A stretch of 59,190 nt of DNA from Crocinitomicaceae bacterium TMED16 (GCA_002167775.1 NHBV01000001.1:1-59190); one strand, 5' to 3'; positions 9,347-17,485 are shown, counted from the first letter of the stretch. The notes: generated by a model not told the origin, from the sequence alone. Numbers and translations are program-made.

Positions 9347-9367
9347 GGCCCCGTGGCGCAACGGATA
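9347..9367 (+). pseudogene. 5' fragment of a tRNA-Arg gene
   Basis: These 21 bases match the acceptor-stem strand, positions 8-9 and the D-arm start of the intact tRNA-Arg 55 nt downstream, but with GGCCCCG for GGCTCCG and a standard D-loop AACGGATA for AACTGAATA. The homology stops before the second half of the D stem. The acceptor strand would pair well with the CGGGGTC 3' strand present at both att sites. It is best read as the broken 5' end of an earlier or original tRNA-Arg. Confidence 0.7.
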
Positions 9368-9401
9368 CTAAAAAGTATGTAGTCGCTCCACTCGGCAAAT
9401 T

Positions 9402-9475
9402 GGCTCCGTGGCGCAACTGAATAGCGCACTGGATTTCGGCTCCAGCGGTTACAGGTTTGAATCCTGTCGGGGTCA
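9402..9475 (+). tRNA. tRNA-Arg (anticodon TCG)
   Basis: A 74-nt cloverleaf folds with acceptor GGCTCCG/CGGGGTC (two G-T pairs), D stem GCGC/GCGC, anticodon stem CTGGA/TCCAG with loop TTTCGGC (anticodon TCG at 34-36), T stem ACAGG/CCTGT and discriminator A. CCA is not encoded. Two tertiary positions are unusual: the D-loop reads AACTGAATA without the usual GG, and the T-loop reads TTTGAAT with T at position 56. Together they could form an A19-U56 pair in place of G19-C56. The last 16 bases belong to the att repeat of the integrated element, so the element rebuilt the 3' end of this gene on insertion. Confidence 0.88.
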
Positions 9476-9476
9476 C
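9460..9476 (+). repeat. attL core (17-bp att repeat)
   Basis: The sequence AATCCTGTCGGGGTCAC covers part of the T-loop, the T-stem 3' strand, the acceptor 3' strand and the discriminator of tRNA-Arg, plus one base. It is identical to 17347-17363. Confidence 0.88.
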
Positions 9477-9485
9477 TTTTTATCT

Positions 9486-9521
9486 TGCCAACCTTCTGTT
9501 TTACAGTTGGTTGGCATTTTT
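9486..9521 (+). terminator. Rho-independent terminator after tRNA-Arg, inside the element
   Basis: TGCCAACC (9486-9493) pairs with GGTTGGCA (9509-9516), with an inner CTGT/ACAG stem, followed by TTTTT. The element therefore brings its own terminator for the tRNA it interrupts. The likely original terminator is now beyond the right att site. Confidence 0.85.
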
Positions 9522-9523
9522 GA

Positions 9524-9544
9524 TTCCCCACATATTCCCCACTT
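9524..9544 (+). repeat. Left-end direct repeats, putative integrase arm-type sites
   Basis: Two copies of TTCCCCAC with 11-bp periodicity (9524-9531 and 9535-9542). The same pair in the same orientation and with the same period occurs at 17189-17209, close to the other att site. Paired short direct repeats near both ends of an element are typical of the arm sites bound by the N-terminal domain of tyrosine integrases. Confidence 0.65.
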
Positions 9545-9583
9545 CTGATTATTTCATCAAATATTCTCGATATAAATAATATC

Positions 9584-9591
9584 TATATTTA
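9584..9591 (+). promoter_or_regulatory. Possible -7 promoter element for the Fur-family gene
   Basis: TATATTTA fits TAnnTTTG with one mismatch and lies 9 nt before the ATG at 9601, which would give a very short leader. Support is weak. Confidence 0.3.
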
Positions 9592-9600
9592 TCACAAACA

Positions 9601-10017
9601 ATGAACAATCAAACAATAGAGAACGAATTACTTGGAAAAGGCGTAAAACCCACAGCAATGAGGATTCTTGTCCTGCAATTTTTTCAAAATTCAATAAATG
9701 CGACTACAATGCGTCAACTTGAAAACCATTTCGATGGTTCTGATATGAGTACACTTTATAGAACGCTTAAAACTTTTGTAGACCATAACATTCTGCATAC
9801 TATCGACGACGGAACAGGAACCCTGAAATATGCAAAATGTATTGAAGGCTGTGTCTGTGCTCCTACGGACTTACACTATCACTTTCATTGTTTAAAGTGT
9901 AAAGAGACAATTTGTTTAACTGAGCAAAGTATACATTCTGTCCAGTTACCTCAAAAATTTACTATGGTTGAGGCAAATATGGTTGTAAAAGGACATTGCT
10001 CAAACTGTTCCAACTAA
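9601..10017 (+). CDS. Fur-family metal-responsive repressor (Fur/Zur-like)
   Basis: A 138-residue regulator of the normal Fur size. The N-terminal winged helix covers residues 1-80, with GVKPTAMRILVLQFF for helix 1-2 and MSTLYRTLKTFVDHNIL for the recognition helix. The C-terminal metal and dimer domain has the HYHFHCLKC block, a Cys pair CLKC and a final CSNC that together would hold the structural zinc. The His-rich stretch LHYHFH is the usual regulatory-metal ligand. Whether it senses Fe, Zn or another metal cannot be told by eye. It is the first cargo gene of the element, 55 bp before a TonB receptor whose upstream region has a palindrome suited to such a dimer. It likely represses the receptor and transporter genes when metal is plentiful. 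Confidence 0.9.
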   Translation: MNNQTIENELLGKGVKPTAMRILVLQFFQNSINATTMRQLENHFDGSDMSTLYRTLKTFVDHNILHTIDDGTGTLKYAKCIEGCVCAPTDLHYHFHCLKCKETICLTEQSIHSVQLPQKFTMVEANMVVKGHCSNCSN

Positions 10018-10021
10018 ACTT

Positions 10022-10036
10022 TGCAAGTCACTTGCA
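10022..10036. promoter_or_regulatory. Palindrome upstream of the TonB receptor, candidate Fur-family operator
   Basis: TGCAAG-TCA-CTTGCA is a perfect inverted repeat with 6-bp arms, in the 55-bp gap between the Fur-family gene and the TonB receptor. It sits 13 bp upstream of the TAACTTTG -7 element, over the expected -33 region, where a bound repressor would block RNA polymerase. Confidence 0.6.
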
Positions 10037-10048
10037 TTAGACATCTAT

Positions 10049-10056
10049 TAACTTTG
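10049..10056 (+). promoter_or_regulatory. -7 promoter element for the TonB receptor
   Basis: TAACTTTG is an exact match to TAnnTTTG, 16 nt before the ATG at 10073. The candidate operator lies just upstream. Confidence 0.6.
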
Positions 10057-10072
10057 CGTCAAACAATTAAAA

Positions 10073-12274
10073 ATGATTAGAGTTATATCCTTGGTTGCCT
10101 TCCTCGCCACCTTCAATTATTCATTTGGACAAAATAATACGCTCAGGGCTGTTGTCATTGAGGCAGAAAGTAATGAGCCCATAATTGGGGTGAAATTCTA
10201 TTTTGAAGAATTAAAAAAAGGTGCGGTCTCTGATATAGATGGAAAGATTACAATTACAGAGATACCTGACGGAAAACATGAAATTGAAATCTCTATGCAT
10301 GGATTTCAGGAAATAGACACAATACTTTCATTCCCTCTTGCGTCAAATGACCTGACATTTCAGTTAGAGGAGGTTGAGCAAGAAATTGAAGGGGTTACGG
10401 TTACTGTCTCAAGGAGTACAAGGACTATCGAAAACCTACCTACAAGAATTGAATTTATTGGAAGTGAAGAATTAGGCGAAAAAGCAATAATGAACTCGGC
10501 GAACATCTCAATGGTACTTCGTGAAAGCACAGGGATTCAGATGCAACAAACCTCAATTAATAGTGGCAACATGGGGATTCGTATTCAGGGATTAGATGGT
10601 AGGTATACACAGTTGCTTAAAGACGGCTTTCCACTATATGGAGGGTTTGCAGGAGGATTGAGTGTGATGCAAATCCCTCCATTAGACCTTCAACAATTCG
10701 GAATCATTAAGGGAAGTTCATCTACATTATATGGTGGAGGGGCAATAGCAGGGCTGGTGAACATGGTTTCACGGACTCCAGATTACGAACCTTCATTGGA
10801 CATCATGCTTACCCAAACACATGCGTTAAGTAGCACAGCGAATGTGTTTTTCAGTCAACGTAAGAAGAAAATAGGAACAACGATTTATGCATCTGGTAAC
10901 TATCAACATGCCTACGACCCAGACAACGATGGGTTTAGTAACCTTGGACAATCCACAACAATTACATTGAATCCAAAAGTGTTCTTCTATCCATCCGAAA
11001 AAACAACAGTTTGGTTTGGTATCAATGGAACATACGACACCCGAGCAGGTGGAGATTTGCTTGCCATAAGAAACGGTACGAGCATCGAAAATCCATATTT
11101 AGAAAGAAATGAAACACAACGTGCAAGCACGCAGTTATTCTATGCTACTCGATTCTCAGAAGGTAAAAAACTGACTATTAAAAATAGTGTTGCATACTTT
11201 GATAGAAACATTGAAATTCCGAATTACACATTCAAAGGAAATCAATTTAACACCTTCACTGAACTGAATTATCAATTGAAAAAAGAAAAGACGGAGTGGA
11301 TATTTGGTGCAAACTTATACACGAACTCTTTCAATGAAATTGCTGATAGTTTGGAGCGTGACCAACAGGATATTACTACAGGAATTTTCATAAACAATAT
11401 TGTCGACCTGTCTGATAAATGGGCACTTGAAACAGGAGTCCGTGCAGACTATTCAATAGATTGGGGAATATTCCCATTACCCAAACTCTCAATCCTTTGG
11501 AAACCAACCAGTAAATTCACGAGCAGACTTGGCGGAGGATTGGGGTATAAGATACCCGACCTATTCACTGAAGAAGCAGAAAGCAGATTCTTTCAAAACA
11601 TTCTTCCGCTGAACAAAAACAACCTCGTTGCAGAACGTTCTTACGGTGGAAACATTGACTTTAACTATAAAACAAAACTTGGAGAGAAAGTAGTATTCTC
11701 AATCAATCAACTGTTTTATCTAACCTCGATTGACAATGCGCTTTTACTAAATACGGACACAACAACTGGATACTTCTACTATGAAAATGCAAGTGGGAAC
11801 GTCTTGAGCAAAGGAGCAGAAACCAACATCAAATTCAAGTACAAAGATTTTAGATGGATTTTGACATATGCGTTTATTGATGCTACCTTAAATTACTTGC
11901 CAGGAAACCCACAGAAACCACTTACAGCAAGACACAATGCAGGAACAGTACTCATGTATGAAAGTGATAAATGGAGAATTGGATATGAAGCCTACTACAC
12001 AGGAAATCAATCCCTCAGTGATGGAACTAAAACAACAGACTTCGTAACAATGGGGCTTATGGTAATGCGAAACTTTGAATGGGGGTCAATCTTTGTCAAC
12101 TTCGAGAACTTCACTGATAGAAGACAAGCACGGTACAGCCCAGTTGTAATACCTCCAACGAGCAACCCTTCCTTCCCAGAGATTTATGCACCAACAGATG
12201 GCATTGTAATAAGTGGAGGTGTTATCATCAAACCATTCGGAAACGACGATGACGATGACGATGACGATGACTAA
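10073..12274 (+). CDS. TonB-dependent receptor with poly-Asp C-terminus
   Basis: A 733-residue outer-membrane receptor for energised uptake. Signal peptide to about residue 20 (FLATFNYSFGQ). A carboxypeptidase-regulatory-like beta-sandwich spans about 24-100 (IEAESNEPIIGVKFYFEELK). The plug domain spans about 115-235, with NSGNMGIRIQGLDGRYTQLL and GSSSTLYGGGAIAGLVNM. The rest is the 22-strand barrel. The size is that of metal-chelate or siderophore receptors, not of the 1000-residue SusC type. The normal end at Phe (VIIKPFG) is followed by an Asn and nine Asp residues, encoded by a GACGAT-type hexamer repeat. The stop overlaps the next start (TAATG), so the transporter is translationally coupled. 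The cargo context points to a metal or metallophore ligand. Confidence 0.94.
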   Translation: MIRVISLVAFLATFNYSFGQNNTLRAVVIEAESNEPIIGVKFYFEELKKGAVSDIDGKITITEIPDGKHEIEISMHGFQEIDTILSFPLASNDLTFQLEEVEQEIEGVTVTVSRSTRTIENLPTRIEFIGSEELGEKAIMNSANISMVLRESTGIQMQQTSINSGNMGIRIQGLDGRYTQLLKDGFPLYGGFAGGLSVMQIPPLDLQQFGIIKGSSSTLYGGGAIAGLVNMVSRTPDYEPSLDIMLTQTHALSSTANVFFSQRKKKIGTTIYASGNYQHAYDPDNDGFSNLGQSTTITLNPKVFFYPSEKTTVWFGINGTYDTRAGGDLLAIRNGTSIENPYLERNETQRASTQLFYATRFSEGKKLTIKNSVAYFDRNIEIPNYTFKGNQFNTFTELNYQLKKEKTEWIFGANLYTNSFNEIADSLERDQQDITTGIFINNIVDLSDKWALETGVRADYSIDWGIFPLPKLSILWKPTSKFTSRLGGGLGYKIPDLFTEEAESRFFQNILPLNKNNLVAERSYGGNIDFNYKTKLGEKVVFSINQLFYLTSIDNALLLNTDTTTGYFYYENASGNVLSKGAETNIKFKYKDFRWILTYAFIDATLNYLPGNPQKPLTARHNAGTVLMYESDKWRIGYEAYYTGNQSLSDGTKTTDFVTMGLMVMRNFEWGSIFVNFENFTDRRQARYSPVVIPPTSNPSFPEIYAPTDGIVISGGVIIKPFGNDDDDDDDDD
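12244..12271 (+). repeat. GACGAT hexamer microsatellite encoding the poly-Asp tail
   Basis: Alternating GAC/GAT codons occur nine times just before the TAA of the TonB receptor. The 6-bp unit can gain or lose copies without changing frame, so tail length may vary between strains. Confidence 0.85.
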
Positions 12275-13068
12275 TGGAGGTCTCAATATTTAAGATATCT
12301 AAAATGGATTGTCCTTCGGAGGAGAATCTAATTCGATTAAGGCTCAATGAAGTAGAAGGTATTCAAAACCTTGATTTTAATCTTGAAGAAAGAAAACTTG
12401 CAATTTATCATATTGGCAACCTAAACCAAATCGAGGAGGCTATTCGAAGTCTTAATTTGGGGTGTGAACATATATCCACAAAACAATCAGCAAGAAAAGA
12501 GTTTTCTAAAGAGAAAAATCAGAAAAAACTCTTGTGGTCAGTTCTTGCTATTAATTTTATCTTTTTTGTCTTAGAGATGACGACAGGTTTGATTTCCAAA
12601 TCAATGGGGCTCGTTGCAGATAGTTTAGATATGTTGGCGGATTCCTTTGTCTATGCGATTAGTCTATTGGCTGTTGGAGGAACAGTGGTTAAGAAAAAAA
12701 GCATAGCTAAAATCGCAGGCTATTTTCAAATTCTATTAGCGGTAATTGGGTTTATTGAGGTTGTTAGAAGGTTTGTGGGTGAAGAACAAGTGCCGAACTT
12801 CTCAACCATGATTGTCGTATCAATTCTCGCTTTGATTGCTAACGGAATATGTTTATATATACTTCACAAATCTAAGAGTAAAGATGAGGCTCATATGAAA
12901 GCAAGTATGATTTTCACTTCAAACGATGTAATAATAAATACTGGTGTAATCACTGCTGGCGTTCTCGTTAATTGGTTAGATTCAAATAAACCAGATTTAA
13001 TCATCGGGGCTGTTGTCTTTCTAATTGTAATGAGGGGAGCAATGAGAATTTTAAAACTTGCGAAATAA
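12274..13068 (+). CDS. HMA-like domain fused to CDF-type cation transporter
   Basis: A 264-residue inner-membrane protein. Residues 1-70 resemble a heavy-metal-associated (HMA) domain (IFKISKMDCPSEENLIRLRL), with a single Cys where classic HMA domains have CxxC. From about residue 85 there are several membrane helices with the cation diffusion facilitator signature in GLVADSLDMLADSFVYAISL, where the Asp residues would form the transport site. Known CDF proteins expel Zn, Co, Fe or Cd by proton antiport. Lacking the usual long cytoplasmic C-terminal domain, it is a short form. The start overlaps the receptor stop by one base (TAATG). Receptor, transporter and regulator form a metal-handling unit; direction and metal are inferred. 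Confidence 0.85.
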   Translation: MEVSIFKISKMDCPSEENLIRLRLNEVEGIQNLDFNLEERKLAIYHIGNLNQIEEAIRSLNLGCEHISTKQSARKEFSKEKNQKKLLWSVLAINFIFFVLEMTTGLISKSMGLVADSLDMLADSFVYAISLLAVGGTVVKKKSIAKIAGYFQILLAVIGFIEVVRRFVGEEQVPNFSTMIVVSILALIANGICLYILHKSKSKDEAHMKASMIFTSNDVIINTGVITAGVLVNWLDSNKPDLIIGAVVFLIVMRGAMRILKLAK

Positions 13069-13078
13069 GGACTTCAAT

Positions 13079-13618
13079 ATGGAACAATCATCTCATCAAA
13101 GGTTACTATTAAATTATTCGAGTGCTCGCAGAAGTTGGGAGTCTTGGTGCTATATGAATAACCTCCATTTGAAGGTCTCTAATTCTGATTTAAAGTCATA
13201 CTGTACTGATAACGAATTGCTTTCACATCTAAGGTATTTGGCTTTGAAGGACATCCATATAGAACTTTACAAGATAATAAAGGACAAAGACAGAACTTGT
13301 GCAGATAATATATTCAAATGTCTAAGAAAGTTTGAGAGTGAAGATGCCAATGTTTCAAAACATTTGGAATTATCAGAAGACTTGAAATCATCAATTGATA
13401 GCATATTAAATGCCCGAGATAAATTTTACGCTCATTTAGATGCAGACTATAAATTCTACCTTGACCCCAAGTTTAAGGTTCAAAGTTATTATGATGTCTT
13501 TGTATACATAGAACAAGGCATCAAATTATTGGGGCTTAACAAAGAGTTTGAGGTTACATTGAGTCAAATCCCATCACGAGATGATTTTGAATTGGATTTG
13601 AAATATCAAAATGTGTAG
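13079..13618 (+). CDS. HEPN-like protein (AbiU2-type resemblance)
   Basis: A 179-residue, probably all-helical cytoplasmic protein. The motif ARDKFYAHLD near residue 122 has the R-x5-H spacing of HEPN RNases (R-D/N-x4-H), and the layout with upstream helices (LRYLALKDIHIELYKII) recalls AbiU2-like HEPN proteins annotated in phage-defence or toxin settings. I chose ATG 13079 over the in-frame TTG 13058, which overlaps the transporter gene. It lies 10 nt after the transporter stop, so it is probably co-transcribed with the metal genes, but it seems unrelated to them. No cognate antitoxin or nucleotidyltransferase (MNT) partner is adjacent. The HEPN assignment rests on the motif alone. Confidence 0.6.
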   Translation: MEQSSHQRLLLNYSSARRSWESWCYMNNLHLKVSNSDLKSYCTDNELLSHLRYLALKDIHIELYKIIKDKDRTCADNIFKCLRKFESEDANVSKHLELSEDLKSSIDSILNARDKFYAHLDADYKFYLDPKFKVQSYYDVFVYIEQGIKLLGLNKEFEVTLSQIPSRDDFELDLKYQNV

Positions 13619-13628
13619 TTAATATAAT

Positions 13629-14657
13629 TTAACACGCCTCTTTATCGATGCATTGTTCTAACAAATATTGAAGTTTGGGTGGGGCAACATATTTGGAAAG
13701 AACCTCATCCGAATTAACATTTCTCCAGTCTCTTAACTTGGGGATGTAAACCCACTTATCAAAGTCTATGACTGTTTGTACTTTTGAAAGGCTCGTTTCA
13801 CTTGTTTTTGGAAGATTAAAACCAAACCTATCAAAGATTCTGTGACCTTTCATAGCATTCAAAATGTTGTGCAGTGCACCTGCATAGATTTTAGTCCCAA
13901 GTCCTTTTGATTTTTGTTTTAAATCGGGTTCTGTGAATATCTTACTACCATACTTAATTACTTCAATCAATGTGCTTTCAACACTATAGCAACGCTCGTT
14001 TTTTTGAGCATATTTTCGGGCGTACTTATATGTCCACAAGTTGAGCCATTCTTCTACAATTGCTTCTCCAGTTTCTTTATTCGGAACGATGAGGTGAAAG
14101 TGAGGATTGTAGGTTTTCTTCACTGGATTGTAATTACATTCTAAAGACCTTATTCCCATTATTTTAATCCCTTTTCCCCTTTGGTGTCTTTTTCGAAGTC
14201 TCTGATTAATGATTTTGAAGGCTTCAATGGTTTTGTCGATTCGTCGCTTTAATACCCTTTTAGAGCAAGCCTTAGCGGTTAATGTTACAAAGTGAGGGTC
14301 TTCCCAAGTCTTTATTACTGGATAGTACTTATTAATTAATTCAGCCTTACGAATATTGGAACAAATAGTGCAAATTCTATTCTTGCAATACCTTCCATAT
14401 ATCTTTCCATCCGAGGTTGTGATTCTATTTTGACAGTGATAGGTGTTCCAGTATGATTGCCTACATTCATATACCCGATTTTCTTTTGATACATCAACCA
14501 AACTTAAAGCCATAGTTTGGGTGATTATTTTTTTCTGAGCCTTGGATTTAGCGGTCTTGTTGTTTGTGATGTCTGAGCCTTTCCCAATAAGGATTATGGA
14601 ATGTTCAGTATAGTTTTTTGTCCCGCTTTGTGCTAATGTATAGATTTCGTCATCCAT
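13629..14657 (-). CDS. Rolling-circle replication initiator (Rep_1-like, HUH)
   Basis: A 342-residue protein with the marks of a plasmid rolling-circle Rep. A Cys cluster (CRQSYWNTYHC and GRYCKNRICTICSNIRKAEL, about 63-105) is the N-terminal zinc-binding stretch common in Rep_1 proteins. FVTLTAKA is motif 1. NPHFHLIVPN holds the H-x-H of motif 2. STLIEVIKYGSKIF has the Tyr-x-x-Lys of motif 3, the nicking Tyr. The order is correct and all key residues are present. In an integrated element it could nick an origin to replicate the excised circle, or act as a relaxase-like initiator. It is encoded opposite to the cargo genes, between them and the excisionase-like gene. Confidence 0.8.
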   Translation of the reverse strand: MDDEIYTLAQSGTKNYTEHSIILIGKGSDITNNKTAKSKAQKKIITQTMALSLVDVSKENRVYECRQSYWNTYHCQNRITTSDGKIYGRYCKNRICTICSNIRKAELINKYYPVIKTWEDPHFVTLTAKACSKRVLKRRIDKTIEAFKIINQRLRKRHQRGKGIKIMGIRSLECNYNPVKKTYNPHFHLIVPNKETGEAIVEEWLNLWTYKYARKYAQKNERCYSVESTLIEVIKYGSKIFTEPDLKQKSKGLGTKIYAGALHNILNAMKGHRIFDRFGFNLPKTSETSLSKVQTVIDFDKWVYIPKLRDWRNVNSDEVLSKYVAPPKLQYLLEQCIDKEAC

Positions 14658-14682
14658 ATTTTCGAATTTATTAGTGAGAAGA

Positions 14683-14973
14683 CTACGCTCGTTTGTTGGA
14701 AGACAACAATGATTCTAACAAATCCGAATATTTGAAGTAAGTTCGGTTTCCGACTTTATAAGGGATAAGGATATTCTTATTGCACCAGTCATGGATGCAG
14801 ACGAGTGACACGTCAAAAAACTTTGCGGTCTCCTTTCTTGTTAGAAACTCTTTATGTTGGTGGGAGGAAGTGAGATGTTCTTTAAAAAGACTTTCGATTT
14901 CGGGTTTTAAACCCTCTTTAATGAGTTGTGTAAGTTCTTCTGGGCTTACTTGTAATAATTGTATTGTTGCCAT
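14683..14973 (-). CDS. Excisionase-like helix-turn-helix protein
   Basis: A 96-residue protein. Its C-terminal half (about 40-90) fits the MerR-like/HTH_17 excisionase domain: FLTRKETAKFFDVSLVCIHD with WCNKNILIPYKVGNRTYFKY. The N-terminal half is acidic and helical. In Bacteroidota elements such proteins sit next to the integrase or Rep gene and act as recombination directionality factors or transcription regulators. It is upstream of the Rep gene on the same strand, with a 25-nt gap, so both may be expressed together. Confidence 0.8.
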   Translation of the reverse strand: MATIQLLQVSPEELTQLIKEGLKPEIESLFKEHLTSSHQHKEFLTRKETAKFFDVSLVCIHDWCNKNILIPYKVGNRTYFKYSDLLESLLSSNKRA

Positions 14974-15034
14974 ATCTTCTATTTTCTTCGAAGTACGACA
15001 CTGTTCTTTTCCGTTTTTTTTCCGAAAATGGTCT

Positions 15035-15871
15035 TTATTTATTCCTCGCTTTGAAATTAGACTGTAAAAGCATCAAAACTCCTTTAGCCCTATCAAAATA
15101 TATACTATTAGTTGGGTGAATTTTGGATATATCTATTCCGTGTTGTTCACGTAAAAATTCTAAGTATTTGACCTTTGATATGGATTTTTCCCCTTGTATC
15201 TCCTCAATAAAATGGAATATGTGTGAAAATTTAGATGGTGTTTTAGGGTTATCATACGCCTCTACGAGATAATTGAACAACTCATAAATTTCACCATCCA
15301 GAAATATTTGTGGAATTTCAATTAATGCTTGTTCGGACCTGTTACCATTGTTCACACTCCATAATTCTTGTAGCGTATCATAAATTTCTATCGCCTTCGT
15401 CTTTCTGTTATCTTTTACTTCTTGCAACCACTCAAAATAGATGAGGCACATTTTGTAATTAATATCGAAAGCCTTCCATATCTTTTTGTCGGTCAAATCA
15501 ATTTTACCTTTCCTAATACAATCAACAAAAACTTTGAGTTGACTCAAATAGAAATCAATCATTTCATTCAGAAACTTCAGTTTTTCCTTTGCTGACACGA
15601 TTTCATTCTCCAATTTAATAGAAGTCATTGCCCACTCTAACACATATATTGCAGTAAAGGCTCTCGGAAGACGTTTAAATATATCTGTTGCAATTAGAAT
15701 AAAATCTAACTCGTCAATATTAAGGTCCGAATGATTCTCTAAATCTCCATTTGGCATTCTTACCTCAACTGGCGTGTAATGAGATGATAAGTCCAAATAG
15801 GGTTGATAGAACCATTCGTAAGTTTCTCTCTTTTGCAAATGCAATTCCTTTGGTCTAATGATTTCGTTCAT
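15035..15871 (-). CDS. Unknown protein translationally coupled to the integrase
   Basis: A 278-residue protein that I do not recognise. It is mostly helical and polar, without signal peptide or membrane helices, and has a Tyr/Trp-rich N-terminus (ETYEWFYQPYLDLSSHYTP). Its ATGA start overlaps the integrase stop by 4 nt, so it is translated with the integrase. Position between integrase and excisionase-like gene is where many Bacteroidota elements keep accessory recombination or regulatory genes (for example RteC-like), but no specific similarity is claimed. Confidence 0.75.
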   Translation of the reverse strand: MNEIIRPKELHLQKRETYEWFYQPYLDLSSHYTPVEVRMPNGDLENHSDLNIDELDFILIATDIFKRLPRAFTAIYVLEWAMTSIKLENEIVSAKEKLKFLNEMIDFYLSQLKVFVDCIRKGKIDLTDKKIWKAFDINYKMCLIYFEWLQEVKDNRKTKAIEIYDTLQELWSVNNGNRSEQALIEIPQIFLDGEIYELFNYLVEAYDNPKTPSKFSHIFHFIEEIQGEKSISKVKYLEFLREQHGIDISKIHPTNSIYFDRAKGVLMLLQSNFKARNK

Positions 15872-17157
15872 ATCACTTTAATGATTTCTTTGTCCGAATT
15901 ATTTGATTGTTCCTCCCAGAGTTCAAAAAAGTCATCAACGTGGTCATCTTCTACTTCGCCTATATAATTGAGTAACATTTTCTCTGTAGCGTGTCCTGTG
16001 ACAGCCATTATCCTTTTGTTTGGTAACTTGTTATAGTGATTCGTTGCAAATGAGCGTCTGCAAGTGTGAGACTTTATTAATTCCCATTTTTCAAACGAAC
16101 CCACCTCCTTCAAATGAGTGAATGGGTTTTGTTTTGCCCCTTCCACCTTATATGTCATTCCCACGATTTTACAAACTTCTTTGATGTACTTATTAAAATT
16201 GACAGATGAAAGCGGTCTTGGAAAGCCTTTTAATCTTTCCACAATCATTTCTACATGAGGGTGCATAGGCACGTTCACTTGTCTGCCTGTTTTGCTCTGA
16301 GTATATTGAACTATCTTCTTCCCACTTGTATGGGTAATTATGTTTTTATCATTCAATTTCATTAAATCTCCAACTCGGCAACCAGTCCAACTACCGATAA
16401 GTAGCCAATCCCTTGCGTTCTCTAAATAGTTTTTCCCTTCGTATTCAAATAGTAAATTGAGTTCTTGTTCATTCAGGGTTGTAAATATTGTCGGTTCAGA
16501 TGGTTTATTAAACTTTTTAGAAAGTACTTGTTCGTTAATTCTCTCTCCACTCTCCTTTGCGTCAATACAAACTGTTTTTATCTGTTGAATGTCTTTTCCA
16601 ACGCTATTCAACGAGAGTCCCATTTCTTTAATAGCAAATTTCATATATCTATCGTGAAACGTCAAATCCACCTCTATCAACCGAAACTTTCTCTTCGAAT
16701 CCAACTCAAACCTTTTAAGTCTGCTAATTGTTGTATTATAATTTCGGATAGTACCTTCAGACACACCCCTTTTGCCATTTCTAACTCTATTCGGCAAACC
16801 ATCTTTATAGTTGATGAGGTGCGTTATTAATAGTTCTTTATCACCCTCTGTTTGTTTTCCCTGTTCTCTATCAACAAGGTTCTTGAGCCAGTCTTTCGTA
16901 ATTGGCAGCCCAATGTCAACACGTTTGTTTCTTTCGTCATAGATAAGGGTTTCTAACTTTCGAAGCCTATTATCAAAGTTTTGTTTCTCTTTAAAGGATG
17001 CAATTTGCTTAACCCAGCCTTTTGAATCACTCCAGTTCATCGGGTTAATTGTTATGTTGGTTGAGAGAATAATATCAATCTTTCGACCATCTCTGAGTCT
17101 TACATATATCGATGAAGGGTTCTTTTTTCCTTTAAGTACAAATTTGACCGTTGCCAT
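15868..17157 (-). CDS. Tyrosine-type site-specific integrase
   Basis: A 429-residue phage/ICE integrase of Bacteroidota type. An N-terminal arm-binding domain (about 1-110), a SAM-like core-binding domain (about 120-215, SEGTIRNYNTTISRLKRFEL) and a catalytic domain (about 230-410) are in normal order. Catalytic residues are visible: Arg in GSWTGCRVGDLMKL, the beta-hairpin Lys in YTQSKTGRQVNVPM, His-x-x-Arg in SHTCRRSFATNHY, the second His in VTGHATEKMLLNYI and the nucleophile Tyr in the same segment. It recombines the 17-bp att site at the 3' end of tRNA-Arg. The start lies 190 bp from the right att site, with arm-type repeats in between. Confidence 0.96.
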   Translation of the reverse strand: MATVKFVLKGKKNPSSIYVRLRDGRKIDIILSTNITINPMNWSDSKGWVKQIASFKEKQNFDNRLRKLETLIYDERNKRVDIGLPITKDWLKNLVDREQGKQTEGDKELLITHLINYKDGLPNRVRNGKRGVSEGTIRNYNTTISRLKRFELDSKRKFRLIEVDLTFHDRYMKFAIKEMGLSLNSVGKDIQQIKTVCIDAKESGERINEQVLSKKFNKPSEPTIFTTLNEQELNLLFEYEGKNYLENARDWLLIGSWTGCRVGDLMKLNDKNIITHTSGKKIVQYTQSKTGRQVNVPMHPHVEMIVERLKGFPRPLSSVNFNKYIKEVCKIVGMTYKVEGAKQNPFTHLKEVGSFEKWELIKSHTCRRSFATNHYNKLPNKRIMAVTGHATEKMLLNYIGEVEDDHVDDFFELWEEQSNNSDKEIIKVI

Positions 17158-17188
17158 AATGTTCGTTTATAGGATTGAAGATACAATT

Positions 17189-17209
17189 TTCCCCACATTT
17201 TCCCCACAT
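17189..17209 (+). repeat. Right-end direct repeats, putative integrase arm-type sites
   Basis: Two copies of TTCCCCACAT (17189-17198 and 17200-17209) with 11-bp spacing lie just upstream of the integrase start. They match the pair at 9524-9544. A position beside the integrase promoter would also allow autoregulation. Confidence 0.65.
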
Positions 17210-17346
17210 TATCTTTACTTAATTTTATTTCAGTTAACCTCACTTAATCTAAATGCTCCACCATGAACCCCTTTAATAGTAAGTTTTTACTTATTTTTAA
17301 AAAGAATACTTGGGCTTGTGTCTTTGCGGTAAATAAATAGGATTAT

Positions 17347-17363
17347 AATCCTGTCGGGGTCAC
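17347..17363 (+). repeat. attR core (17-bp att repeat)
   Basis: Identical to 9460-9476. It is the orphaned 3' end of tRNA-Arg and is followed at once by an intrinsic terminator, as expected of the original tRNA 3' end. Confidence 0.88.
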
Positions 17364-17366
17364 AAA

Positions 17367-17400
17367 CAAAAAAGCTTCCCTTTTGGGAGGCTTTTTTTGT
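17367..17400 (+). terminator. Displaced tRNA-Arg terminator
   Basis: AAGCTTCCC (17372-17380) pairs with GGGAGGCTT (17385-17393, one G-T pair) across a TTTT loop, then a run of seven Ts. It directly follows the right att copy and was probably the terminator of the uninterrupted tRNA gene. Confidence 0.88.
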
Positions 17401-17417
17401 TTAGGTACTTTCAATGG

Positions 17418-17477
17418 ATGAAAACCTGGTTTGACCTGAGCATCAAGGATGCGAAAGCACCGACCGAAGAGAGGTAA
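17418..17477 (+). CDS. Possible micro-ORF or gene fragment, GC-rich
   Basis: ATG to TAA encodes 19 residues (MKTWFDLSIKDAKAPTEER). Its base composition is richer in G and C than its surroundings and its codons look like real coding sequence, suggesting a leftover of an acquired gene. No family is recognised. Confidence 0.3.
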   Translation: MKTWFDLSIKDAKAPTEER

Positions 17478-17485
17478 TCCTGTCG

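Follow-up and report, generated by a model that had tools for sequence, protein, structure and literature searches.

The window analysed here, that is, the whole stretch of 59,190 nucleotides from Crocinitomicaceae bacterium TMED16 (part of contig C48 in the draft genome G000, which totals 2.46 Mb), contains an element integrated at the 3' end of a tRNA-Arg(TCG) gene. The target gene, called by ARAGORN and by Rfam RF00005, lies on the plus strand at 9402 to 9476, and the left core copy, AATCCTGTCGGGGTCAC (attL; 9460 to 9476, plus strand), completes it at the 3' end. These last 17 bases of the gene are repeated exactly once in the 59 kb, at 17347 to 17363 on the plus strand, where the right core (attR) aligns with the tRNA 3' end of a related genome, G017, and would be the original 3' end of the gene. 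The next-best match to the core has 4 mismatches, and its terminal 8-mer, GGGGTCAC, occurs at only two sites, both of them core copies. Directly 3' of the tRNA gene is an element-borne, terminator-like hairpin followed by a T-run (9477 to 9522, plus strand). Just inside each end of the element we found a pair of the 8-mer TTCCCCAC, read as TTCCCCACATATTCCCCAC at the left (9524 to 9542) and as TTCCCCACATTTTCCCCAC at the right (17189 to 17207), both on the plus strand; these are the only four copies in the window, and within each pair the two lie in the same orientation 11 bp, or one helical turn, apart. The pairs are most simply read as arm-type integrase sites. The excisable length is 7,887 bp, and the GC content of the element is 36.0%, compared with 40.2% and 39.0% for its flanks.

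From the right end, four genes follow one another on the minus strand in the order Int, a gene for a 278-aa protein, HTH_17, and Rep_1, whereas the plus strand carries a Fur gene, a TonB receptor gene, a CDF gene with an HMA domain and an AbiU2/HEPN-like gene. The tyrosine integrase (Int; 15868 to 17157) matched Pfam SAM_5 and Phage_integrase and the PHROG integrase family (1.8e-24), and it is 49.6% identical to the Int of another tRNA-Arg element, L108. The HTH_17 protein (14683 to 14973; Pfam 2.5e-10) matched PHROG excisionase families and is a probable excisionase (Xis) or regulator. Between the two, in a slot whose content varies among related elements, lies the 278-aa protein (15035 to 15871), to which no family could be assigned from Pfam, PHROG or NCBIfam; its structural model was all-helical, of low confidence and too poor for use. 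A likeness of its C-terminal pattern to RteC, judged by eye, was unsupported by any library and is not claimed. The Int, HTH_17 and Rep genes are all intact. Among the eight element proteins Pfam gave no relaxase, coupling protein, type IV secretion system (T4SS) or phage structural protein, and Pfam and PHROGs gave no phage packaging or interference gene.

The Rep protein (13629 to 14657, minus strand) is a Rep_1-type HUH rolling-circle initiator. Its match to Rep_1 (PF01446; 2.7e-10) scored 40.6 bits, above the curated cut-off of 33.2, and the residues expected of the active site, H186 and H188 of the HUH motif, the upstream glutamate E232 and the catalytic tyrosine Y236, were invariant in 10 homologues. 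Across the same ten, a T-L-T-type strand, P-H-x-H and E-x-x-K-Y-G-x-K were all invariant, preceded by a conserved Cys-rich region. The closest initiators of small rolling-circle plasmids from Bacteroides and staphylococci are about 28% identical to it at best. An AlphaFold model gave a predicted local distance difference test score of 60 overall, with block means of about 71 to 91 for residues 111 to 230. This core superimposed on SIRV1 ORF119, which we take to be a viral HUH Rep, with a Z of 8.0 and a root-mean-square deviation of 3.0 over 104 residues, although many ferredoxin-like folds scored nearly as high. A profile of Rep gave only chance matches to PDB sequences, and no PHROG matched it.

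The evidence for mobility came from related genomes. G017 is the closest relative compared at the flanking aldehyde dehydrogenase (Aldh) gene, with 92.7% nucleotide identity; there the Aldh gene is directly followed by an intact tRNA-Arg(TCG), the element is absent, and short matches to the right flank of the window come after. G089, from another species of the same genus, has the element inserted at the corresponding tRNA gene; over 3,352 bp (9375 to 12726, where its contig ends) there are 0 differences. The Aldh genes of G000 and G089, by comparison, differ at 141 of 1,142 bp (12.3%), mostly at third codon positions. Inheritance from a common ancestor at the rate of the host genome cannot leave 0 differences beside such divergence, so a recent transfer is indicated, and a recent movement of the element between these two congeneric species appears well supported. 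Counts of genomes with Rep, G000 itself included, were 1 of 86 for the genus, 3 of 399 for a sample of the order and 1 of 395 for a sample of the phylum; the genus count is a lower bound, since the part of the element with Rep is missing from the G089 assembly. A preliminary description had taken the 17-bp repeat, the tyrosine integrase, the excisionase-like protein and the restored tRNA 3' end to define an element integrated at tRNA-Arg, and the core, the arm pairs, Int and Xis, the element-free G017 locus and the identical copy in G089 all bear this out. It had also proposed a comparison with relatives lacking the element, which G017 provided at the same tRNA locus; in the relatives, the same gene order was not found without the core repeat or without interruption of the tRNA.

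The G017 locus itself was dropped as a clean empty site; because an arm-like pair lies downstream of its tRNA, this locus may hold the decayed left end of another element. Arm-like repeat pairs were seen just 3' of tRNA-Arg(TCG) in G017 (L035, 719 to 900), in G033 (L074) and in G012 (L069). Profiles detected neither Int nor Rep in the stretches that follow the tRNA in G017 and G012, and a G033 contig begins at the core. tRNA-Arg(TCG) looks like a recurrent insertion site in this genus.

To find homologues of Rep, we scanned 84,980 species, each represented by a single genome, with peptide patterns. The scan yielded 17 loci, all in Bacteroidota. With a profile of the integrases, Int was located upstream of Rep and on its strand at 12 of 19 Rep loci, that of G535 among them; contig ends truncate several of the remainder. 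For seven elements, that of the window included, a repeated tRNA 3' end marks the boundaries: the window element at tRNA-Arg(TCG) (17 bp), L108 of G535 at tRNA-Arg(CCG) (18 bp), L039 at tRNA-Asn (50 bp), L040 and L041 at tRNA-Ser (15 and 13 bp), L043 at tRNA-Leu (about 12 bp), and one in G800 at tRNA-Val (44 bp). In all seven, Int stands at the tRNA-distal end and reads towards the tRNA; by eye, all seven also have an element-specific repeat pair at both ends, its members 11 to 12 bp (one helical turn) apart, and a terminator-like hairpin after the left core. The order shared by the family is Int, a variable gene, HTH_17, Rep and cargo, with the exception of L039, where the cargo lies between Int and HTH_17; the proteins of the Int-Xis gap have no demonstrable homology across most elements. 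The cargo is a type I restriction-modification (R-M) system in L041 and, by gene layout, in L043, a HindIII-like R-M system in L040 and one of type ISP in L039. A type IIG enzyme is found in L049, whose only boundary marker is a 17-bp repeat close to the ends of its contig, and in L038 Rep accompanies McrBC-like and ApeA-like genes, the recombinases there being of the serine type by sequence inspection. Family cargo is usually restriction-modification, whereas the window element has metal genes and a HEPN-like gene instead. We conclude that the window element is a member of a little-described Bacteroidota family, real and recently mobile. The preliminary description had regarded a Rep in such an element as unusual; it is not unique, given at least six other delimitable Bacteroidota elements with the same layout. 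No description of the family was found in full-text literature, which is weak evidence of novelty, as subscription journals lie mostly outside that coverage.

Two further loci with Rep were noted. In G800 (L111/L112, 1185000 to 1224999) the tRNA-Val element contains an internal tandem duplication of 8.74 kb, 99.98% identical, with HTH_17, Rep and cargo and without Int, which is possibly an amplification, perhaps Rep-linked, or else an assembly effect. In an IMG/VR viral contig (L110, 9977 to 10990) a relative of Rep (50%) lies near CHAP/NlpC lysin-like and type I R-M-like genes.

The element was compared with several known systems. Its nearest relative, L108, has Int, Xis and Rep proteins 49.6%, 54% and 46% identical to those of the window element, the same gene order, and an arm pair at both ends beside its 18-bp core, but differs in its cargo of RadC-like and unknown genes, in its Int-Xis gap protein and in its length of 9.9 to 10.1 kb. 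Actinobacterial integrative and conjugative elements (AICEs) of the pSAM2 type are integrated at tRNA genes, carry an Int-Xis-Rep module and replicate when excised; the window element resembles them in its tRNA integration and in this module, but it has none of their TraB-type translocase. A homologous initiator also occurs in Bacteroides and staphylococci on small rolling-circle plasmids (about 5.6 kb in Bacteroides), which are on record as autonomous plasmids, not as tRNA-integrated ones. Integrative and mobilizable elements (IMEs) of Bacteroidetes, of the NBU1/NBU2/Tn4555 type, are likewise integrated and mobile without conjugation machinery of their own; all those covered in a 2017 review have a canonical relaxase (PMC5704250), whereas the window element has none and has a Rep_1 HUH protein instead. 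It is therefore not a canonical Bacteroidetes IME and, having no T4SS or coupling-protein genes, not an integrative and conjugative element (ICE). Firmicutes IMEs with relaxases of the rolling-circle type (MobT, Rep_2, PHA00330) also combine an integrase with an initiator-like protein as sole nickase (PMC5357655); they differ in Rep family and phylum, and often in having a TcpA coupling protein, which the window element lacks. In its workings the window element would resemble integrated plasmids or replicative integrative elements, and perhaps these Firmicutes IMEs as well. The preliminary description had set an intact Rep_1-like HUH initiator against the want of a relaxase or transfer gene. 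As a statement about the sequence this holds, but the contrast loses force, for Rep_1 initiators of three Firmicutes plasmids are also used for mobilization by ICEBs1, according to passages in PMC5704250 and PMC5357655, and Rep could itself be the relaxase.

We propose that this is a site-specific integrative element that, once excised as a circle, undergoes rolling-circle replication through Rep, that is transferred passively and that carries exchangeable cargo, and we consider this account as a whole probable. Of its parts, integration and transfer have good support and replication is likely, while mobilization by way of Rep is put forward as a hypothesis. To judge by the anatomy of its ends, Int and the HTH_17 protein would recombine the two cores, releasing the 7,887-bp circle and restoring the tRNA; the Rep_1-type HUH protein, to go by its family and conserved residues, would then nick the circle and start rolling-circle replication, giving a plasmid state when excised. 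Passive transfer might use a visiting conjugative system that acts in trans, Rep being the relaxase, a concrete hypothesis because the Rep_1 initiators of Firmicutes plasmids serve in this way for ICEBs1, or else DNA might be taken up and then recombine at the tRNA region. The exchangeable cargo would comprise the HEPN-like gene and the Fur/TonB receptor/CDF cassette, with metal efflux or homeostasis as the likelier benefit; the replicative integrated plasmid spreading metal uptake or efflux that had been suggested earlier is plausible.

Several results weigh against this proposal. The structural Z of Rep was near the level for unrelated folds, and Foldseek with the Rep model returned no match at E ≤ 0.001. 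The heptamer CTTGATA, which we take to be the pC194-type nick site, was absent from the element, and the origin of replication was not located there. No TraG/TraD coupling-protein C-domain (PF12696) was found in the host genome, so the host shows no sign of a resident helper of this type. Finally, the block identical between G000 and G089 starts at 9375, 27 bp before the tRNA and 85 bp left of the core, and because it begins left of the core, integrase action alone is insufficient to account for the tRNA in these two genomes. Their common tRNA type (GGCTCCG, ACTGG anticodon stem) differs from that of G017, G033 and G067. Such a start could reflect homologous recombination of a tRNA-bearing fragment, the same tRNA type in both hosts by chance, or an assembly join. 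Uptake with homologous recombination would explain the common tRNA, and the inclusion of the whole tRNA and its 27-bp leader in the block, together with a tRNA type in G000 unlike that of its close relatives G017, G033 and G067, would also suit a resident element whose own integrase is inactive and which now moves only within larger chromosomal fragments. We think this unlikely, as intact Int, Xis and Rep genes and cores and arm pairs kept at both ends are unexpected for an old remnant. If instead the G089 block were an artefact of assembly or binning, the recent transfer would lose its support, while the element would still be integrated. Both genomes are drafts, the G089 contig is only 4.5 kb long and ends inside the CDF gene, and that assembly yielded nothing more of the element; but the one contig runs unbroken from a G089-type Aldh gene into the element, and the identity sets in within the leader and not at the core, which makes an artefact distinctly improbable.

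A phage satellite of the P4 type or of the type of phage-inducible chromosomal islands (PICIs) was also weighed, in which Int, an AlpA-like regulator and Rep would replicate the element upon infection by a helper phage, for packaging in helper capsids. PICIs have the order Int-HTH-Rep, and the compact size, tRNA site and gene order of the window element resemble theirs; the Rep relative beside a CHAP lysin-like gene in a viral contig indicates, moreover, that the Rep lineage reaches phages. That relative is the only one in 2.9 million viral contigs (pattern scan), two weak inovirus matches were the yield from 50,697 phage records, and the element has no packaging or capsid gene and its Rep no PHROG match, so that we rate a satellite as quite unlikely. 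Our preferred reading, an excisable element replicating by rolling circle, can be carried further, to an undescribed Bacteroidota family (Int, variable gene, HTH_17, Rep_1 and cargo, at tRNA 3' ends, with one-turn arm pairs and its own terminator) in which a single HUH protein is both initiator and non-canonical relaxase; this would be a Gram-negative counterpart of the Firmicutes-type IMEs, consisting mainly of R-M carriers and here bearing metal genes. We offer this extension tentatively, as a possibility somewhat short of even chances.

The cargo lies on the plus strand. A Fur-family regulator (9601 to 10017; Pfam FUR 6.1e-9) is followed by a TonB-dependent receptor (10073 to 12274; Pfam Plug 3.3e-15 and CarbopepD_reg_2), which has 46 to 47% identical relatives on Bacteroidota plasmids, by a CDF-type cation transporter with an N-terminal HMA domain (12274 to 13068; Pfam Cation_efflux 1.4e-16, HMA 7.7e-6) and by the HEPN/AbiU2-like gene (13079 to 13618). 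The preliminary description had named this cargo as Fur, TonB receptor and CDF with a HEPN-like gene; Pfam matches upheld the first three, but the last is weaker than stated, its match to PF18734 (HEPN_AbiU2) reaching 24.4 bits against a curated cut-off of 26.8, and PADLOC gave no match to it. The 278-aa gene, the arm-like pairs and the terminator-like hairpin are additional to the features it listed. Homologues of the CDF protein were found on 400 plasmid records, with identity up to 64%. Relatives of the TonB receptor are followed by a CDF gene on a Flavobacterium plasmid and by a heavy-metal P-type ATPase on pOR1 of Ornithobacterium, and one lies near a CusA/CzcA pump on a Haliscomenobacter plasmid; in Flammeovirga a CDF gene occurs with a repressor and a methyltransferase. 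Because the receptor and CDF homologues adjoin efflux genes on plasmids, metal resistance, homeostasis or efflux seems likelier than uptake as the function of the cassette. The receptor gene ends in a run of GAT and GAC codons (12244 to 12271) encoding nine aspartates, a possible metal-binding tail.

Elements of this type would be missed by search tools based on relaxases or T4SSs, because every Bacteroidetes IME described by the time of the 2017 review has a canonical relaxase. Rep_1 beside Int and HTH_17, adjoining a tRNA, gives a simple genetic signature for mobile R-M and metal cargo in environmental Bacteroidota, and the family makes it testable whether one HUH protein serves both replication and transfer in this phylum.

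Some features of the flanks were also noted. The approximately 26 kb to the right of the element (17567 to 43652) encode a GH3 glycoside hydrolase, a sulfatase, a CBM_4_9 protein and several proteins bearing Por secretion tails; they are absent at the G017 locus and probably form a separate polysaccharide-use region. Immediately 5' of the tRNA gene (9347 to 9401), 16 bp duplicate the tRNA-Arg 5' end (GGCCCCGTGGCGCAAC), and after them come a small hairpin and a GTATGTAGTCGCTCCACTCGGCAAA stretch that is conserved; partial 5' copies similarly precede tRNA-Arg(ACG) and tRNA-Arg(TCG) genes in G033, G089, G092 and G067, all of the same genus. To the right of the attR core, a short unit (17364 to 17485) ends in a cut-off second core copy (AATCCTGTCG). 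The same unit occurs 3' of tRNA-Arg(ACG) in G027, G033 and G092, and in G033 it ends with a full second tRNA 3' end; a comparable spacing of 166 bp separates two cores in L108. That the right flank derived from a tRNA-Arg(ACG) locus, as the matches of 17347 to 17485 in G027, G033 and G092 had suggested, was rejected, for contig C191 of G033 begins with a TCG-type core and then has a flank of the same kind. The unit at 17364 to 17485 may be a minimal non-autonomous att unit.

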